This document shows, one piece after another, positions 1 to 28,272 of a stretch of DNA of 53,094 bases. The position numbers were made by a program, and so were the translations under genes. Numbering within the stretch: position 1 is the first letter of the stretch; every line of letters begins with the position of its first letter. Origin of the DNA: an uncultured Bacteroidales bacterium (GTDB taxonomy: Bacteria; Bacteroidota; Bacteroidia; Bacteroidales; Paludibacteraceae); NCBI GenBank assembly GCA_902784425.1, contig CACZUS010000011.1, positions 1-53,094 of the forward strand, given 5' to 3'. Under the pieces are notes generated by a model. It worked only from the letters and a program-made list of their open reading frames with translations, was not told the origin of the DNA and did not search any database.

Positions 1-62
1 AAAGATCTCTCTTCTTCGTCCCTCCCGCCTCTCGCGGTGGTGCTTCCCTTGGAAAGCGAGTG

Positions 63-93
63 CAAAGGTATAACCTTTTTCTTTCCCCTCCAA
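63..93 (-). promoter_or_regulatory. Strong leftward Bacteroidota promoter, stable-RNA-like
   Basis: On the minus strand a TACCTTTG -7 element (63-70) lies exactly 20 nt downstream of a TTG -33 element (91-93), which is the Bacteroidota consensus. A-rich tracts lie upstream (100-130), as in UP elements. The transcript would start near position 56 and leave the window. The TTTGGAGG upstream and TTTGCAC after the -7 resemble rRNA or tRNA operon promoters of this phylum, but the RNA itself is outside, so that is inference. Confidence 0.6.
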
Positions 94-221
94 AACTTTC
101 TCCCACTTTTTTTCGAAGTTTTTCTTAATGCGCTGATTCGTAGAGAGAAAAATTTTATAAGCACTATTCAATTTCAAAAGAAGATTACTCTATTATATCT
201 CCCTATCCATACAAATAAGAG

Positions 222-264
222 AAAAAAAGAAGATGATGCATCTGATACATCATCCTCTTCTTTC
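222..264 (-). terminator. Intrinsic terminator of the OmpA-family gene
   Basis: On the minus strand a GATGATG / CATCATC hairpin, flanked by GAAGA and TCTTC arms, is followed by a run of seven T. It lies about 20 nt past the stop codon at 283. Confidence 0.65.
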
Positions 265-282
265 CTATATGCAAAAGAGTGA

Positions 283-2589
283 CTAATACTCTACTTCAAA
301 TTCAACACGACGATTCTTAGCTCTTCCAGCCGCCGTTTTGTTAGTCTTTATAGGCATTGTGTCTCCTAATCCTGACGTTTCCATACGAGATGCAGCAACA
401 CCCTTTCTCTTCAAATAATTTTTCACGGAATTTGCTCTACTCAATGACAATTTTTTGTTCCACTTAGGATTTCCGACATTATCCGTATGTCCAACAATAT
501 TAAGCTTGTATGAAGGATTATTCTTCATGATCTTCGCAATATCATTCAATATCGGATAAGAACTTTTCTTGATGATCGATTTACCTGTTTCAAACTGAAT
601 ACCCGTGAGAGCTTTCTTGAACACTTGTTTCATATTTATCTCAGGACATCCCTTATTCGAATCTACACCTGCCTCTTCTGGACAATTATCCAAATAATCT
701 GGAACTCCATCACCATCCGTATCAATTGGACATCCAAGAGAATCCACCTTCACACCTTCTGGTGTATCAGCACACTTATCTAAATAATCGAATACACCAT
801 CGCCATCCGTATCAACAGGACATCCAAGTGAATCTACGTTTGCACCTTCTGGAGTGTCTGGACATTTATCCAAATAATCTGGAACTCCATCACCATCCGT
901 ATCAATTGGACAACCCTTTGAATCAACCTTCACTCCATATGGTGTACTAGGACAATAATCCAAGTAATCTGCCACACCATCACCATCGTCATCAACAGGG
1001 CAACCCAAAGGATCCACATTCACGCCTTTTGGTGTGCCTGGACATTTATCCAAATAGTCTGGAACGCCATCTTTATCCTTATCTTTCGGACAACCAGCAT
1101 CGTCAACCTCCACTCCTGGCAAGGTATCTGGACATTTATCATATTTATCAGGAACTCCATCTTTATCCCTATCACGTTTCTTGGTACCGAAGAGGAATGC
1201 TAGTCCTACATTAGCCCTTACCGATCGAGTATTCGATGGAATCTTATATTCTTCAATCTTAGCAAACTTCAATGGAATATGATCAAGCGCCGCATAAAGG
1301 TTGACTGGTCCTAAATTCAAATTCATACCTGCATTTAAATTATTCCACTCTCCATCAAACATATTGTAAGAGAGAGTCAACGACACATATTTGCAAGGTC
1401 GGAAATTCGTTGAAATAAGGAACTCTTCCCATGCTGTACGACGGAAGAAATAGGTGGTCGACAAGAACCCAAATCCTACGCGATCCTCCCACAATGAATA
1501 TTCTGCACCCACATTAAGTTTTGTAGATAAAGCAGAACCATACTTTTCTGGATGATCATTAATCACATACAAATTCTCCAATTCGTCACCATAATGTTCA
1601 TAATATTTGGTAGAGTCATCATTAATATCAAACTCTACACCATTATAAACCACGTCACCATTTTTATCCAACTGTACCAGATCTTTTCTCCAACGAATAA
1701 ATCCGAGATCCAAGACACTAGCAGAGACTTTCAATTCAGGAAGTATTTGGTAGGTCATACCAAGATCTATCGCCATACCGCTTCCACGTGGTTTTATGTA
1801 AGAACGAATCGGTTGATCCTCATCAAACTCGACTTCGCCAAACTGATGCTTATCATTAGGCACGAAACGTAATCCTGGAACAGAACCATGAATAGAGGCA
1901 TCTCCTTTAAAGTGCCACTCATCTTCTGTTGCCATCAAATCCAAATCATAAAAATCGGTGTACGCATTAAGATGTCCCAACAGGAACTTGAATTTTCCAC
2001 CGATAGATAGCTTATCATTAATTTTATGAGAATAACCTGCTGCTATCTCCGAAAAGAGGGTTGAACTTACGGAGAGTCGATTCATTCTGAAATCATAAAC
2101 TTCATGATTGTTCATTCCACCAAAGATGATGGATGGAATCTGATGTGGTAAAATCAGCATGGTCTCCATTCTGTTGGAGAGACCAAACGTAAAGAAGCCT
2201 TTCTCTTTAATCGAGAAACCGAAATCAAGCAAATCCACCCGATATGAAGCATAGACACGCTCTTTAAACTTCAGTTTATCCAAGAAATTCTGCATGACGT
2301 CTGCATTTTTGTCCATAAAGAGTAACGTGCGGACCTCTCCATTCACTTCTTTATTTTCAACCAGATCATCAAAAGTAAAACGGCTATTACCTCCAGATAT
2401 CGCAATCGTTGAAATACCAGGCATACCCACATAAAATTTTCCAATAGGCTGTGCAGCCGGGTTCACCTTATGCTGACGAAGATTTTGTTTATCGAAAAAT
2501 AGTGTATTACTCATCTGTGCATTCGCCACACATGGGAGCAATATCATCACAACACTTGCGATTATTCTTGTCATTTTTTTGCTTTTCAT
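283..2589 (-). CDS. OmpA-family outer-membrane protein with DUF5723-like barrel and TSP3 repeats
   Basis: Predicted outer-membrane protein of 768 residues that anchors to peptidoglycan. A signal peptide (MKSKKMTRIIAS to ANA) precedes a beta-rich region of about 450 residues whose start (KVNPAAQP) resembles Bacteroidota DUF5723 barrels. Six calcium-binding thrombospondin type-3 repeats (D-x-D-x-DGV, CP) of about 30 residues follow (470-650). The last 118 residues are an OmpA/MotB domain with the peptidoglycan-binding signature (GHTDNVG, LSLSRANSVKNYL, GRAKNRRVE). I chose the ATG at 2589 over the one at 2613: it has a strong Shine-Dalgarno 5 nt upstream, and the longer form adds eight residues before the signal peptide and overlaps the upstream gene. 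It is cotranscribed with the lipoprotein gene at 2606-3364. Confidence 0.85.
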   Translation of the reverse strand: MKSKKMTRIIASVVMILLPCVANAQMSNTLFFDKQNLRQHKVNPAAQPIGKFYVGMPGISTIAISGGNSRFTFDDLVENKEVNGEVRTLLFMDKNADVMQNFLDKLKFKERVYASYRVDLLDFGFSIKEKGFFTFGLSNRMETMLILPHQIPSIIFGGMNNHEVYDFRMNRLSVSSTLFSEIAAGYSHKINDKLSIGGKFKFLLGHLNAYTDFYDLDLMATEDEWHFKGDASIHGSVPGLRFVPNDKHQFGEVEFDEDQPIRSYIKPRGSGMAIDLGMTYQILPELKVSASVLDLGFIRWRKDLVQLDKNGDVVYNGVEFDINDDSTKYYEHYGDELENLYVINDHPEKYGSALSTKLNVGAEYSLWEDRVGFGFLSTTYFFRRTAWEEFLISTNFRPCKYVSLTLSYNMFDGEWNNLNAGMNLNLGPVNLYAALDHIPLKFAKIEEYKIPSNTRSVRANVGLAFLFGTKKRDRDKDGVPDKYDKCPDTLPGVEVDDAGCPKDKDKDGVPDYLDKCPGTPKGVNVDPLGCPVDDDGDGVADYLDYCPSTPYGVKVDSKGCPIDTDGDGVPDYLDKCPDTPEGANVDSLGCPVDTDGDGVFDYLDKCADTPEGVKVDSLGCPIDTDGDGVPDYLDNCPEEAGVDSNKGCPEINMKQVFKKALTGIQFETGKSIIKKSSYPILNDIAKIMKNNPSYKLNIVGHTDNVGNPKWNKKLSLSRANSVKNYLKRKGVAASRMETSGLGDTMPIKTNKTAAGRAKNRRVEFEVEY
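640..1182 (-). repeat. Six tandem ~90-bp repeats encoding TSP3 calcium-binding motifs
   Basis: In-frame repeats of about 90 bp, each encoding D-x-D-x-DGVPDYLDxCPxTPxGVxVD or a close variant. The repeats link the barrel to the OmpA domain. Near-identical DNA between units makes copy-number change by recombination possible. Confidence 0.85.
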
Positions 2590-2594
2590 CTTTA

Positions 2595-2603
2595 CCCCTC
2601 CTT
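2595..2603 (-). promoter_or_regulatory. Unusually strong Shine-Dalgarno site
   Basis: The minus strand reads AAGGAGGGG, 5 nt before the ATG at 2589. Bacteroidota genes rarely carry a Shine-Dalgarno, so this decides the start of the OmpA-family gene. It lies just past the stop of the upstream gene (2606). Confidence 0.6.
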
Positions 2604-2605
2604 CC

Positions 2606-3364
2606 CTAATCATTTAACAACAATCTCGCCTTCATATAGGCACTTAAGCTAACCTGTAAACCATATTTCTCATCTAGGTAGAGAGAGCCATCCAACGGCA
2701 TTGCCATATGATAGTTGATCTTGATATGATTTACTTTTTGAAGCATTTCAGTGTCTTTTCCCGAAAATTCAAAATTCACATCTGAATAAGCCGCCTCTAT
2801 CACCTCATGAGATTTCTTGTCAATTTTTGCGCTATTGACAGAAAATGCTCTCCTTAACGATTTGAGCTCCTTCATCTCTATTATAGGCAAATTGACGTTA
2901 TAGTCAAAACCTACTGTGTCACCTCGCAAAAATCCTATCTCCATCTTCACTTCAAAAGGCAGTTTGTTAACAACCTTCATTTTTAATTTCATATCTTCCA
3001 ACGAGTCTAGAATTTCCCCCTTGCCAAAGTAATTGCCAAAATCAACATCTTTCAATGTATCACTCGCAGAGATATCCGTACCCGTGATTGCCACCAACGG
3101 CAAAGGAATATCGCTCTCCTCAATCATCTTACTTAATTCATAAATTGAATCAATCGTAACGATATTTCCAGAAGACCCCCTGTGTCTGAAGACATCTTTC
3201 AGAGTCAAATTCACACTGCCGACAGGTGCATCCAAAGCGGTTTCCACCATCAAACTATCTGCGTTCATATTCTTTAGGTCATATTCTTCCACCTCACATG
3301 ACGTGAGCAAAAGAACTGCCATCGAAAAAAAAGGAATAAAATACCTTAAAAATTTACGGCTCAT
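2606..3364 (-). CDS. Hypothetical lipoprotein
   Basis: 252 residues. A signal peptide with lipobox LTSC (C23) implies a lipid-anchored envelope protein. The mature part is beta-rich with no motif I recognise; it alternates hydrophobic strands with Asp/Ser-rich turns. It precedes the OmpA-family gene, the two reading frames are separated by only 16 nt, and a promoter lies just upstream at 3408-3437, so the two probably form a bicistronic envelope operon. Function unknown. Confidence 0.7.
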   Translation of the reverse strand: MSRKFLRYFIPFFSMAVLLLTSCEVEEYDLKNMNADSLMVETALDAPVGSVNLTLKDVFRHRGSSGNIVTIDSIYELSKMIEESDIPLPLVAITGTDISASDTLKDVDFGNYFGKGEILDSLEDMKLKMKVVNKLPFEVKMEIGFLRGDTVGFDYNVNLPIIEMKELKSLRRAFSVNSAKIDKKSHEVIEAAYSDVNFEFSGKDTEMLQKVNHIKINYHMAMPLDGSLYLDEKYGLQVSLSAYMKARLLLND

Positions 3365-3407
3365 ATAATTCTTGTTGTTTTTACTATTCTAATTGTCAAT
3401 ATTCTTT

Positions 3408-3437
3408 CAAAGGTACAATATTAATACAAAAAAACAA
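3408..3437 (-). promoter_or_regulatory. Promoter of the lipoprotein-OmpA operon
   Basis: Minus strand TACCTTTG (3408-3415) with TTG (3435-3437) 19 nt upstream fits the Bacteroidota sigma-ABfr consensus. The 5' leader would be about 40 nt. Confidence 0.65.
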
Positions 3438-3450
3438 ATCTTAACATATT

Positions 3451-6400
3451 TTATTTTACTTTTATCCTCACACTACCCGTATTAGATGAAAATTCTGGGG
3501 CATATAAACACTGAGCAGAAGTGATTCCATTTGAATAATATCCGGCATGTGTCACCCATAATGGATATTCAAAAACAAATGTTCCTTTCTCCAAATGGTC
3601 GAAGAAGTAATACATGGCAGCATCCTTTGGCGACTGATAATAACAGGTTCCATCACTGCATCTGTACCCCGAGATCTGTGTCACAGGTTCCAAGCAACTT
3701 GCTCGTTGATCCTTCAATGAAACATAATCCATGTCTCGGTCCGTCCGCAATGTGATTCGAATCACCAGTTTGTCACCCACCTTCAGTTTTGTATTCTTAT
3801 CTATCGTTTTCAATACGGGTTTACCATTCACATGTTCTTCTAGCATCACCATCTTCTCTACATGTAAAGCCGTTTTGTTTTTGAGGACCTTATCTATCTC
3901 TTCTTCAAACTGCCAGTACATCGCACCCCATGAGATATTACCGCCATCCTCGCTCTTCAGCTCAATATCTCCGTATGATGGAATGACATCTTTCCCTTCG
4001 ATGATAGTTGAGAAATAACCTGTACCTGCTTCTGTCTGCTCGGGTTCGATTTGTTTGTTGCCCATTTTAATCGTCACTTGATTATCCTTTGACAACCAAT
4101 CGGATCCGCTTAACAACAAGACATTCAATGCATCCACATTGGCTATTGTATTTCCCCAGTTTTGAGTACGTTTCTGGTTGAGTAGCCACAAGCGCAGTTC
4201 ATCTTGCTCTTTCTGTTGTGGATCTACCACCTCAAAGGCCTCCATGATTCTGGTATGAGTGGAAATCGCTGCATCTTGCCAGAAATAACCACTTACATTC
4301 TTTTGCCAATACATACCCATTTCATCCGAGGTGGTTGAGAATTCACGCAATGATTCAACAACTTTCTTAGCTAACGACTGATTTCCATTTCGATGCAATA
4401 CGATGGCTGCCAATGCCTTCCCATTCAACGAGAAGTCTTTCCACTCTTTTTCAATCAATTTATAATAAAAATCATAAGCCTCACGAGCACTTGATTTGAT
4501 TGCCACCTCTGAATATAGACTTCTTATTTGGTAATAATACAAATGTTCCACACTGATGTATGCATATTTTTGATAATCCTTTGGATGATATTTCTTCAAC
4601 CACTCATAGTCTCTCTGAATCTCACTATCCATGAAAGAAAGCGACGAAGTATAATCCATCTTATTCAAGAAATCATTATCTACAATACCTGCCTTTCTCA
4701 ACCGAGCGAAATTATCCAAAACGAACAACGTCACATGGCGACTCGGATTCATGCCTTTAAACCATACGTAAGAACCTTCATCCGTTCTGTATTCCTTCAG
4801 TTTATTCTCCCAATTCTGACACTTATTTTTCAAATCATTCAAATCGAAGAGTGTAGACAAACGTTGCTTCCGTTCTGTCTCATTTCTAGCTTCCAACACC
4901 CATGGGGTTTCATTCAACAAGACATTCTTCACATCCTGATTCTTTTCCAAGTTAGACAATAAGGTCTCTTTATCCTTCCCCTGTTGTTTCCAAATCTGAA
5001 TCACATTAAAGATTCGAGGGTTGGACGTAGCAATGTGTTGAGCCATCAAAGTGGCAAAATGAGCAACTGAATAATTGATTGCATTCTCATGCTCCACAAC
5101 CGCAATCGAAGGGAGTGATTGAACAGCATACCAGACTGGATTGGTTGCGAACTCCAATTTCAAGAAACGTGACGAAAGGGTTTCTGATTGATTGTTCTTC
5201 AGTTGTTCAAACGAATAGTTTTTCGACTGTCCGCCTCTCACATAGACTGGCAAGGATTGTGTCAAGACGATTCTATCTGATAAGATTGGAAGTAGAGTCT
5301 GTTCTGCATCAGAGAAACCATCTGACACAGCAGAGGTGCGAACCAATACGGCATCCCACTCTCTTGGCACTGCAAAGGAGAACTTTACAGAAGTGTTCAC
5401 ACCAGCCTCAACAGAAAAATCAGCACTATTTTCCGCAATCGTTTGTTCTGTAACAGGATCTAGCAATTGGGTCTTTGCCTTTCCTTTTTGAGCCGTTTCA
5501 GAGAGATTAATGATTTTAGCGGATAATACGCACTCGTCACCCTTACGCAAGAATCGAGGAAGGTTCGGTGTAATCATAAAATCCTTTTGTGTCACCATCT
5601 GTTCCTGCAACTGATCGTAATACAAATCTTTTGTATGAGCCAAGGCCATGAAGTTCCAACGGGTAAGACTCTCAGGCATTTGGAAAGACAATATCACCTC
5701 CCCATCTTTATTGGAATTCAACTGAGGATAAAAGAAAGCCGTCTCTGCAAAATTGGTACGAGCTTTAGGTGTGTCAGATTTTACAGAATCGTCGCCCTTC
5801 TCTTCTGTAGGTTTATTCTCCGCGTTGATTCCATTCCGAGACAGATCCTCAGCAACAACATTTTTAGCCATTGCTACCTCTTCCATATCTGCTACAGCAG
5901 ATTCTTCCTCAACCATATAAGCACCATCCGCATTTGCTACAGATTTACTCATGGACATCATCCTTCGAGAGGCAAAACGATAACGATTCACATCCCCAGA
6001 AGGAAGCGACATCCAATCATCAAACTTCCAATTGATCACATAAAAGTTTCTATCTTTTTCCCAATAAACGGATGGACGACTCCAACTGTATTCACTCCAA
6101 TATGGGAAACGGATGTTTTTATAGTAGAACGGAGAGAACGACCAATAATGACGAACAAACTGATCTAACGACGCATCATACATGGCTGCCAACACTTCAG
6201 ACTCTTTCTCTTTCGGCACTGTAATCGTCCACGTCTCTTTAGAACCTGGCATCATCTTATCGCGGAAGACAGATAGCTTCATAGGCAACTTCCTGGACTC
6301 TTTCTTTTTATAAATGGTAAACGATGTGCTTTGACACTCGCCCTCATTCACTAAGAAGAATTTCACATTCATCGCCGTTCCATTTTTTTTGTTCAACGAG

Positions 6401-9462: not shown

Positions 9463-10830
9463 TTACTTAACAATCTTTTCCAACTTGCTTACATTGTTTT
9501 GGATCACCTCATCAGGCAACTCATAATTAGTAAGGTCGCCTGCGATGTATTGATCGTAAGCAGACATATCTATCAATCCATGACCAGACAAGTTGAACAA
9601 GATAACTTTTTGTTTGCCTTCCTCTTTAGCCTTCTTAGCCTCACGAATAGCAGCTGCGATGGCGTGAGAAGATTCAGGAGCAGGGATGATACCTTCAGTT
9701 CGTGCAAATAGAGTAGCTGCTTCGAACGTCTCAATTTGAGGGATATCAACACCTTTCATCATACCATCTTTAATCAACTGACTAACGATTGTTCCTGCAC
9801 CATGATAACGAAGTCCGCCAGCATGAATATGCGCAGGAGCGAAGTTGTGACCCAAAGTAAACATTGGCAACATAGGAGTATAACCAGCCTCATCACCGAA
9901 GTCATATTGGAAGACACCACGAGTCAACTTAGGACAAGATGCAGGTTCTGCAGCATAGAACAATGTATTCTTTCCGTCCAAAATATTATGTCTCATGAAT
10001 GGGAAAGAGATACCGCCGAAGTTAGAACCACCACCGAAGCAACCTATGATGATATCAGGGTATTCGCCAGCCATTTCCATTTGTTTTTCTGCCTCTAGAC
10101 CAATGATAGTCTGATGAAGTGTAACGTGATTCAACACACTACCCAATACATATTTACAATTAGGAGTACCCATAGCCAACTCAACAGCCTCAGAGATAGC
10201 AGTACCCAAACTTCCTTGATAAGTAGGATTAGCAGTTAGGATATCTTTACCAGCGCGCGTACTCATACTAGGAGAGGCAATCACCTGTGCGCCGAATGTT
10301 TGCATAATAGAACGACGGTAAGGTTTTTGGTGGTAGCTTACCTTAACCATAAAGACAGCCAATTCCAAACCGAATGCCTTTGCAGCATAAGAAAGAGCGG
10401 CCCCCCACTGACCAGCACCAGTCTCGGTAGTGATGTTTGTCACACCCTCTTTTTTACAATAGTAAGCTTGAGCCAAAGCAGAGTTCAACTTATGAGAACC
10501 AACAGGGCTGACACTTTCATTTTTAAAATAGATATGAGCAGGTGTATCTAGGGCTTTCTCCAAGCCGTATGCACGAACCAACGGAGTGGAACGATAGCTC
10601 TTATACATATCACGAACTTCTTCTGGAATTTCGATCCAAGCATCTGTTGTATTCAACTCTTGTTCAGAACAAGCACGATTGAAAAGGCCACACATCTCTT
10701 CCAACTTAATAGGCTCCTTTGTTTGAGGATTCAACATTGGAAGAGGCTTGTTTTTCATATCAGCTACAATGTTATACCATGCTCTAGGTATTTCGTTTTC
10801 TTGTAAGAAGAATCTTTTTTGTTTTTCCAT
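9463..10830 (-). CDS. trpB: TrpB2-type tryptophan synthase beta subunit
   Basis: PLP-dependent enzyme of 455 residues, expected to condense indole with serine to tryptophan in the cytosol. The PLP lysine is K114 in GSHKLNSAL; the TETGAGQWG substrate loop and the phosphate-binding GGGSN loop are present. Length and the long N-terminal extension (about 80 residues before STPLVRA) mark the TrpB2 branch rather than TrpB1, which works with TrpA in the trp operon. No trpA or other trp gene lies next to it, so it may salvage indole or serve as a second TrpB. The upstream leader (10865-11047) carries a Trp attenuator, which independently supports a role in tryptophan supply. Confidence 0.9.
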   Translation of the reverse strand: MEKQKRFFLQENEIPRAWYNIVADMKNKPLPMLNPQTKEPIKLEEMCGLFNRACSEQELNTTDAWIEIPEEVRDMYKSYRSTPLVRAYGLEKALDTPAHIYFKNESVSPVGSHKLNSALAQAYYCKKEGVTNITTETGAGQWGAALSYAAKAFGLELAVFMVKVSYHQKPYRRSIMQTFGAQVIASPSMSTRAGKDILTANPTYQGSLGTAISEAVELAMGTPNCKYVLGSVLNHVTLHQTIIGLEAEKQMEMAGEYPDIIIGCFGGGSNFGGISFPFMRHNILDGKNTLFYAAEPASCPKLTRGVFQYDFGDEAGYTPMLPMFTLGHNFAPAHIHAGGLRYHGAGTIVSQLIKDGMMKGVDIPQIETFEAATLFARTEGIIPAPESSHAIAAAIREAKKAKEEGKQKVILFNLSGHGLIDMSAYDQYIAGDLTNYELPDEVIQNNVSKLEKIVK

Positions 10831-10864: not shown

Positions 10865-10899
10865 AAAAAAAGCAGCAGGTCATGGAGGCCTACTGCTTT
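10865..10899 (-). terminator. Attenuator terminator in the trpB2 leader
   Basis: On the minus strand AAAGCAGTAGG pairs with CCTGCTGCTTT (11 bp, one G-T wobble) around a 9-nt loop, followed by seven T. It sits between the Trp-rich leader peptide and the trpB2 start, so it should stop transcription unless an alternative fold forms. Confidence 0.8.
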
Positions 10900-10944
10900 C
10901 TATATCGCTCGAACATTGCATATATCGATTGACGGATCCTCCAT
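10882..10944 (-). promoter_or_regulatory. Antiterminator pairing in the trpB2 leader
   Basis: ATGGAGG (10938-10944), right after the leader stop codon, is perfectly complementary to CCTCCAT (10882-10888) in the terminator loop. CC at 10933-10934 could extend it to GG in the terminator stem with a bulge. A second pairing, TCGAACA (10979-10985, inside the leader ORF) with TGTTCGA (10909-10915), would be blocked by a ribosome stalled at the Trp codons. The exact switching fold is inferred. Confidence 0.5.
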
Positions 10945-10949
10945 TTAAA

Positions 10950-10997
10950 CTAGGACCAGCGCCACCAACGTCTGCTATTGTTCGAATAATGATTCAT
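10950..10997 (-). CDS. Tryptophan leader peptide (attenuator)
   Basis: A 15-residue ORF, MNHYSNNSRRWWRWS, with three Trp codons among its last five sense codons and a TAG stop. It lies between a consensus promoter (11019-11047) and an intrinsic terminator (10865-10899), which is the classical layout of ribosome-mediated attenuation: scarcity of charged tRNA-Trp stalls the ribosome at TGG-TGG-CGC-TGG and favours readthrough into trpB2. Trp is normally rare, so this cluster is unlikely by chance. The gene is too short for ordinary gene finders. Confidence 0.85.
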   Translation of the reverse strand: MNHYSNNSRRWWRWS

Positions 10998-11018
10998 ATC
11001 TATTTTACTTTATGCATA

Positions 11019-11047
11019 CAAATATAAAGTATTTTTCAATCGCACAA
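11019..11047 (-). promoter_or_regulatory. Promoter of the trpB2 leader
   Basis: Minus strand TATATTTG (11019-11026) with TTG (11045-11047) 18 nt upstream. Transcription would start near 11012, about 15 nt before the leader peptide. Confidence 0.65.
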
Positions 11048-11208
11048 AAATTTTTTCTAAAATTTCGAACCGCACTCCTAACAGAATCGTATGAAACTTC
11101 ATCATATCATAAACAAATGAAAGCAAAACCATCCCCTATTTAGCAGAATCACTGTTAAACAAAGATTGAACAAACCATTTATCAAATGGCAAATCTCAAC
11201 AAACATCT

Positions 11209-28189: not shown

Positions 28190-28272
28190 ACCCGGGTGGT
28201 GAAATGGTAGACACGCTAGTTTCAGGTACTAGTGACCGCGAGGTTGTGTGAGTTCGAGTCTCATCCCGGGTA
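28190..28272 (+). tRNA. tRNA-Leu (anticodon CAG)
   Basis: 83 nt that fold as a class II tRNA: acceptor ACCCGGG/CCCGGGT, D-arm GGTGAAATGGTAGACAC, anticodon stem CTAGT/ACTAG with loop TTCAGGT (CAG), a variable arm GTGACCGCGAGGTTGTG region, and T-loop TTCGAGT. No CCA is encoded. The first pair is A-T instead of the more usual G-C of tRNA-Leu. It lies 28 nt upstream of the amidase gene. Confidence 0.93.

Follow-up and report, generated by a model that had tools for sequence, protein, structure and literature searches.

In Escherichia coli, the trpL leader has clustered Trp codons in its leader peptide, three alternative pairings and an intrinsic terminator. To our knowledge, no leader-peptide control of TrpB2-type enzymes has been described. 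For Bacteroidetes, Rfam has the family RF01692 (Bacteroid-trp; Weinberg et al. 2010, PMC2864571), named "Bacteroidete tryptophan peptide leader RNA", which is the nearest family to the leader described here. Passages of other reports give clues to leader-peptide attenuation before the amino-acid operons of a flavobacterium (PMC9723704), and describe sORFs reminiscent of leader peptides in B. thetaiotaomicron (PMC7366714). For Corynebacterium diphtheriae, attenuators have been predicted before both trpB1EDGC and trpB2A (passages of PMC1262725), and an excerpt on marine bacteria suggests that attenuation is superfluous for detached trp genes (PMC2395257).

Tryptophan can also be made from indole of outside origin. 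Excerpts of the literature describe this for Chlamydia trachomatis, where trpRBA is under Trp-dependent control (PMC7755916, PMC6504234), and for gut Bifidobacterium (PMC11085991). A survey of human gut genomes counts variants with TrpAB only among the possible users of indole and names no TrpB-only variant in its available passages (PMC9026213). A high affinity for indole is known for TrpB2 (Hettwer and Sterner 2002, as cited in a passage of PMC11917138), and the role of the stand-alone enzyme has so far rested mainly on enzyme properties of this kind. The literature searched, with most subscription journals outside its scope, yielded no report of a stand-alone trpB2 controlled by a leader-peptide attenuator.

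Here we describe a probable attenuator of this kind in an uncultured Bacteroidales bacterium of the Paludibacteraceae. The DNA analysed, referred to below as the window, is a stretch of 53,094 nucleotides, contig 11 of a 3.32-Mb genome in 170 contigs.

The trpB2 gene and its leader

The protein encoded by trpB2 (Table 1) scored 595.8 bits with TIGR01415 (cut-off 518.85) and 148.8 bits with the canonical trpB profile TIGR00263 (cut-off 392.45), and it was also above the curated cut-off of NF009057. These profile matches assign the gene to TrpB2 (TIGR01415 / COG1350 type) and not to the canonical trpB. The solved chains nearest to the protein by sequence are 6hul, 4qys and 6hte (PDB). It is 99-100% identical in two MAG records, uncultured Bacteroidales RUG11121 and a Paludibacteraceae from water-buffalo reticulum, and the source of the bacterium is probably the rumen. 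A contig titled Roseburia sp. (JAMPEL010000056.1) carries a trpB2 that is 79% identical to the Bacteroidales one; this MAG contig may be mislabelled or mixed.

The neighbours of the trpB2 loci were searched using the seven trp proteins of the window's own genome as queries. The flanks reached up to 1.5 kb to either side of the gene in the genus and in loci L033-L061, and up to 3 kb downstream in the others, being shorter at contig ends, and trpB1 rows below 45% identity were left out of the display. Within these flanks, trp genes were found only at L059, together with a weak trpG match (27.7%) at L057. At L059 (G148, 1-4347), trpB2 lies within an operon trpE-trpG-trpB2-trpD, and directly before trpB2 no leader was found. 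No trp gene stands beside the trpB2 of the window, in agreement with the preliminary description of the locus, in which the leader was said to control a lone TrpB2 and not a trp operon.

On the minus strand, a putative promoter, the 15-codon ORF MNHYSNNSRRWWRWS, a terminator and trpB2 follow each other. The preliminary description was correct to the base for the ORF, for the 11-bp terminator with seven T and for the gene behind them, and the two complementarities that it named, ATGGAGG/CCTCCAT and TCGAACA/TGTTCGA, both exist in the sequence. Trp codons make up three of the five codons preceding the final Ser codon of the ORF, the clustering looked for in an attenuator. ATGGAGG (10944-10938) matches CCTCCAT (10888-10882) in perfect complementarity. 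Beyond a 2-nt bulge, the pairing continues with two further pairs between CC (10935-10934) and GG (10890-10889). The terminator, with arms AAAGCAGTAGG (10899-10889) and CCTGCTGCTTT (10879-10869) and one G-U among its 11 pairs, lies between leader and gene as in an attenuator and is conserved. One of the nine pairs of the leader (1:2) hairpin is non-standard in the window. The fold of the 182-nt leader has a z of -3.99, and none of 200 shuffles was equally stable. A simple terminator scan with loops of at most 8 nt missed the minus-strand terminator and listed solely a 5-pair site on the plus strand.

At the putative promoter, TTTG with TATATTTG resembles the Bacteroidetes -7/-33 promoter consensus; a sigma-70 promoter scan found no match at this position. 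The second box varies among 10 aligned congeners, with TATATTTG in three, TATCTTTG in two and TTCCTTTG in five.

Table 1. Features of the trpB2 locus in window coordinates
Feature	Position	Strand	Remarks
trpB2	9463..10830	-	455 aa, TrpB-like PLP enzyme, without adjacent trp gene
Intrinsic terminator	10865..10899	-	11-bp stem, 9-nt loop, seven T at 10871-10865
GGCCTCCAT, antiterminator 3' strand	10882..10890	-	terminator loop and top two stem pairs
TGTTCGA, outer 3' strand of leader structure	10909..10915	-	complement of TCGAACA
Leader (1:2) hairpin, GCTGGTCCT with AGGATCCGT	10932..10960	-	RNAalifold helix, columns 56-64/76-84
ATGGAGG, antiterminator 5' strand	10938..10944	-	just 3' of leader stop codon
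Leader peptide ORF MNHYSNNSRRWWRWS	10950..10997	-	ATG 10997, TAG 10950; TGG TGG CGC TGG near end
TCGAACA, outer 5' strand of leader structure	10979..10985	-	complement of TGTTCGA; helix columns 32-36/103-107
Putative promoter	11019..11048	-	TTTG 11048-11045, spacer 18 nt, TATATTTG 11026-11019

Over the whole window only a tRNA (28190-28272) reached an Rfam cut-off; at the leader no family did, T-box and RF00513 Trp_leader included. The best match at the leader site under a relaxed threshold, ncr1015 (33 of 60 bits), was rejected as a chance resemblance to a hairpin with a T run, as was SraB on locus L077 (30.4 of 130 bits). RF01692 had no match in the window, in its own genome or in 31 other leader loci (28 trpB2, 3 trpB1; E 0.05), and it matched before the canonical trpB1 of one genome (G014) with 48.5 bits against a cut-off of 49. 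These data bear on the idea that the leader works mainly at the level of translation, by reinitiation or by controlling how ribosomes reach the gene, or with the help of a factor that binds Trp or tRNA, and not by ribosome stalling and termination. Leader genes of Bacteroidetes peak 11-14 bp before the structural gene, which is read as reinitiation in a passage of PMC4833913, but here about 120 nt separate the leader stop codon from the trpB2 start and the seven-T terminator intervenes. Both this layout and the failure of T-box and of every other Rfam family to reach its cut-off at the leader speak against this explanation, which we regard as improbable.

Conservation of the leader within the genus

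Among 16 searched genomes of the genus, trpB2 (86-100% identity) is present in 14 and lacking in G001 and G021. A Trp-rich ORF and a terminator lie upstream of trpB2 in 12 of the 14. Ten have a common layout, with leaders ending in RRWWRWS, RRWWR or KRWWRRF and a terminator that ends about 40-50 nt 5' of trpB2. In the loci of G006 and G022 (L016, L017) the leader is MQKLRISNNWWWCDSI and the terminator ends about 245 nt before trpB2. No element was found before trpB2 in L018 and L015, for the latter within 200 nt upstream only. The genomes concerned, G008 and G009, thus have trpB2 without a detected Trp leader, yet their trpB1 operon keeps a leader, MIIMNHKYWWWQSSEQ...

The ten congeners of the common layout were aligned (alignment A1, nine distinct rows). 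It had been proposed that orthologous leaders be aligned for Trp codons and stems, and in these ten CGTTGGTGGCGC is invariant and the stems are largely paired; GGAGG and GCCTCC are invariant as well, and the consensus fold contains the terminator and the leader helices. In the terminator 96.0% of cells are paired and three pairs have changed on both sides, and in the leader helices 92.1% are paired with four such pairs. The leader (1:2) hairpin alone reaches 95.1% with two pairs changed on both sides (RNAalifold), and the outer helix 86.7%. For the antiterminator the value is 88.9%, with both-sides changes at 73:136 (UA/CG) and 82:128 (CG/UA); five of its nine pairs are invariant, and at 72:137 six of the nine rows cannot pair.

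The covariation score was reached by none of 500 shuffles for the terminator, none of 500 for the leader helices and eight of 500 for the antiterminator, counts that are not probabilities because the alignment rows are close relatives. Sliding the partner by 1-3 columns gave lower values for all three. By a stricter criterion, the count of pairs with changes on both sides, the antiterminator was at least matched by 214/500 shuffles, the terminator by 134/500 and the leader helices by 39/500, so that here the evidence does not exceed chance.

Survey of the order

Of 198 genomes sampled from the order, 66 including the window's own had TrpB2 at E 1e-100 or better, and upstream regions were scanned in 64 of the other 65, leaving out G103 (L062), whose contig ends at the gene. 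The scan asked for an ORF no longer than 40 codons, in which two Trp are separated by no more than 3 residues, and an intrinsic terminator 20-180 nt after the ORF stop, all within 450 nt. Such an element precedes trpB2 in 24 of the 64 genomes outside the genus (23 without L081, a weak positive at -9.3 kcal/mol), in addition to the 12 of 14 within it, making 36 of 78; it is absent in 42 of 78. The expectation that trpB2 orthologues carry a Trp-rich ORF and a terminator was therefore borne out within the genus, but the element is missing in 40 of the 64 genomes beyond it. At L061, the terminator picked by the scan is an unlikely one, and a better hairpin lies nearer the gene.

Single cases can be due to chance, since the rule was also passed by 7 of 1560 dinucleotide shuffles and by 2 of 125 upstream regions of other genes. 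It is nevertheless highly improbable that the ORF and hairpin are unregulated, that is, a terminator that acts constitutively, or where some other transcript has its 3' end, preceded by an ORF that is Trp-rich by accident. The 36 positives among 78 trpB2 upstream regions stand against 1.6% for other genes, leader, spacing and structures are conserved over the congeners, and the same design occurs before trp operons of the same genomes.

In a named collection, which overlaps the sample of the order, 21 of the best 80 loci were positive and 59 had no element. The positive records include the titles Paludibacter sp., Tannerella sp. and Prevotellaceae. Eight negative named loci were inspected, among them Bacteroides xylanisolvens, two Parabacteroides and Tannerella forsythia, and had no close TGG pair within 450 nt. 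A tree of TrpB2 was made from 77 rows, of which 36 are attenuated (L133, whose frame is broken, was left out). On it the attenuator label needs 15 changes, compared to 25.9 when shuffled, and at least 11 changes are forced by well-supported branches. Gains or losses of the attenuator have thus been numerous, although it is clustered on the tree.

Folding of the leader

The leader was folded with the ribosome at different positions, assuming an E. coli-like footprint. With the ribosome at Trp codon 1 or 3, ATGGAGG is free, and the nascent RNA, taken as far as the terminator loop, adopts a structure that includes the antiterminator (-14.5 kcal/mol). A ribosome at the stop codon covers most of ATGGAGG, leaving a weak fold without antiterminator (-6.8 kcal/mol), and in the computed fold without a ribosome the leader hairpin forms. 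With this assumed footprint, the computed folds make the antiterminator exclusive with the terminator, a result that is weak against shuffles. The finished terminator was the most stable fold in every ribosome state tried (-24.4, -24.4 and -23.1 kcal/mol), and the switch must therefore be kinetic. In the fold test for two exclusive structures, suggested earlier, the antiterminator fold thus appears when the ribosome is stalled, and the finished terminator is the most stable in all states. It also counts against an attenuator that the antiterminator engages just the terminator loop and two stem pairs.

Duplexes with the 5' arm of the terminator were computed for 32 of the 36 positive leaders (L010, L012, L017 and L081 left out). 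The best duplex clearly beat shuffled leaders in seven of the 32 (mean z -1.0), with no row of the nine from the genus among them, and in four leaders of the genus (L001, L006, L008 and L014) it was made by the Trp codons themselves and not by ATGGAGG. For 20 of the 23 leaders outside the genus, the best duplex starts 20-39 nt past the first Trp codon. GGAGG:CCTCC occurs as a core pair in 17 loci, some of whose genomes belong to both the order sample and the named collection, at a distance from the first Trp codon of 21-25 nt (25 nt in 15 of them), and TAAACA:TGTTTA in seven loci at 23-33 nt. None of 101 negatives had core pairs at the same spacing, a comparison that is partly built in because negatives were defined by the absence of a Trp-rich ORF with terminator. 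A TTGTTTA-like terminator top is common to many distant leaders, namely L068, L072, L084, L086, L088, L161, L171, L180 and L194, some of which have a TAAACA-like strand after the Trp codons.

The trp operon and loss of the pathway

On contig 46 of the same genome lie seven ORFs, namely trpB1, E, G, D, C, F and A in this order. Matches above cut-off were obtained to TIGR00263 trpB, TIGR00566 trpG_papA, TIGR01245 trpD, the TrpC equivalog and TIGR00262 trpA; the best matches of trpE and trpF bear those names, but lie below the equivalog cut-offs. As the whole trp operon is present, TrpB2 is an additional enzyme in this genome and not the sole source of Trp. A leader, MERNFFKYWRWQGLRFENRKSDRVFLEANV, and a terminator precede the trpB1EGDCFA operon. 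With a Trp leader on the operon as well, trpB2 would appear to be the second output of a single regulon. In the genus, 5 of 11 trpB1 upstream regions were positive, and in the other six trpD and trpC precede trpB1.

A model built from the trpB2 leaders (R1) found one site in the window's own genome, at trpB2. In seven congeners it found a further site, where a leader ending in YWWRPTLFQSRR or YWWRPSLFQSRR and a terminator are followed by a TrpE-like ORF, this likeness being judged by eye against the TrpE of the window's genome; a 124-residue piece of one such ORF matched no family at 1e-20. Together with the trpB2 leaders, these sites indicate two units with Trp leaders in the same genomes.

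No match to trpA, trpC or trpD was found in G006 (99% complete), G022 (99%), G023 (93%) and G003 (88%), all four of which have an attenuated trpB2. Elsewhere in the genus trpB1 showed 29-34% identity over about 350 residues in the same search that found trpB2. That search found no full-length trpB1-like protein in G006, G022 and G003 (shorter matches, 30%) and nothing except trpB2 in G023. One further congener, G012 (89% complete), lacks trpA and has trpC and trpD. Outside the genus, trpC is absent in 11 of 24 attenuated genomes (nine of the 11 at least 90% complete) compared to 13 of 40 non-attenuated ones, which shows no clear association between attenuator and trpC loss.

Tryptophanase was searched for in 40 genomes, the 16 of the genus and the 24 attenuated others. 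Overall 18 of the 40 had a match at E 0.001, none above the curated family cut-off, and none of the 16 genomes of the genus matched, so by this route they have no indole source of their own. With the pathway genes missing, TrpB2 in such species would plausibly work on outside indole only, and the attenuated trpB2 in these relatives suggests regulated making of Trp from indole taken up from outside.

Discussion

It is likely, with a probability of roughly 0.86, that trpB2 is under a ribosome-mediated transcription attenuator that responds to charged tRNA-Trp, and that the enzyme most likely converts free indole to Trp. The parts of the element, their conservation, their covariation and the isolation of the gene come from sequence comparison, and from these we infer ribosome stalling, read-through, a response to Trp and the use of indole. 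Attenuation of this kind had been put forward in the preliminary description, and the anatomy, the conservation across species, the pair-keeping changes, the folds with the ribosome in place and the leader of the trp operon all support it. When Trp is ample, the ribosome would reach the leader stop and cover ATGGAGG, the terminator would form and transcription would stop before trpB2. Uncharged tRNA-Trp would make the ribosome stall at UGG UGG CGC UGG, and the free ATGGAGG could pair with CCTCCAT and the GG at the terminator top, letting the polymerase enter trpB2. Where the leader is not translated, ATGGAGG would be hidden by the leader hairpin, making termination the default.

The product, TrpB2, would turn free indole, leaked or taken up, into tryptophan. 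In the window's own genome trpB2 could serve as a starvation-induced back-up next to the trp operon, catching indole when Trp is short, and in the congeners without the pathway it is a plausible sole route to Trp. That TrpB2 is part of the tryptophan supply, as had been proposed, is thus supported indirectly by an attenuated trpB2 kept without trpA, trpC and trpD, though here as an additional enzyme and not the sole source. For gut and rumen Bacteroidales in general, we lean slightly towards the attenuated lone TrpB2 being a regulated indole-to-Trp salvage, by which apparent auxotrophs, when starved of Trp, use the indole of their neighbours.

The attenuator could also be real while TrpB2 mainly removes toxic or signalling indole or makes another product, with Trp being just the sensed signal. 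The trp pathway is indeed also present in many genomes with an attenuated trpB2, including the window's own, and trpC in 13 of the 24 outside the genus, and TrpB2 enzymes may depend on O-phosphoserine (Busch 2014, as cited in a passage of PMC11917138). However, a switch that opens at Trp shortage is wired for making Trp and not for detoxification, the attenuated trpB2 is retained in congeners without trpA, trpC and trpD, and the absence of a tryptophanase match in the 16 genomes of the genus also speaks against removal of indole. We therefore consider this explanation unlikely and retain the making of Trp from free indole.

The conserved and recurring Trp attenuator on trpB2 gives regulatory evidence for a role in Trp supply that is independent of enzyme properties. 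It is now testable which apparent Trp auxotrophs of the rumen and gut can live on indole, and hence who consumes the indole of others. An attenuated, detached trpB2 also runs counter to the suggestion made for marine bacteria, in the available part of PMC2395257, that attenuation is superfluous in such genes.

In comparison with known systems, the trpB2 leader shares with E. coli trpL the clustered Trp codons, three alternative pairings and the terminator. It differs in controlling one stand-alone gene, in an antiterminator that overlaps mainly the terminator loop and in the absence of an RF00513-type match. The preliminary description had called such attenuation established for the trp operons of Proteobacteria; it is not limited to them, being predicted in Actinobacteria (passages of PMC1262725) and represented in Bacteroidetes by RF01692. 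Like the trpB2 leader, RF01692 belongs to Bacteroidetes and consists of a Trp-rich leader ORF followed by a terminator, but the target here is a detached trpB2. C. diphtheriae likewise has a Trp attenuator before a gene named trpB2, although that gene is linked to trpA and the likeness is one of gene name, which may stand for the TrpB2 class or for a second copy. The TrpB2-type enzymes of known structure (PDB 4qys, 6hte, 6hul) are of the same class by profile. In the indole salvage of Chlamydia and Bifidobacterium, as far as the available passages go, repressor proteins (TrpR, YtgR) control trpA and trpB, whereas here a leader peptide controls a lone trpB2. The mechanism is ordinary and classical, and what is new is its target, a detached trpB2, together with its persistence in apparent auxotrophs.
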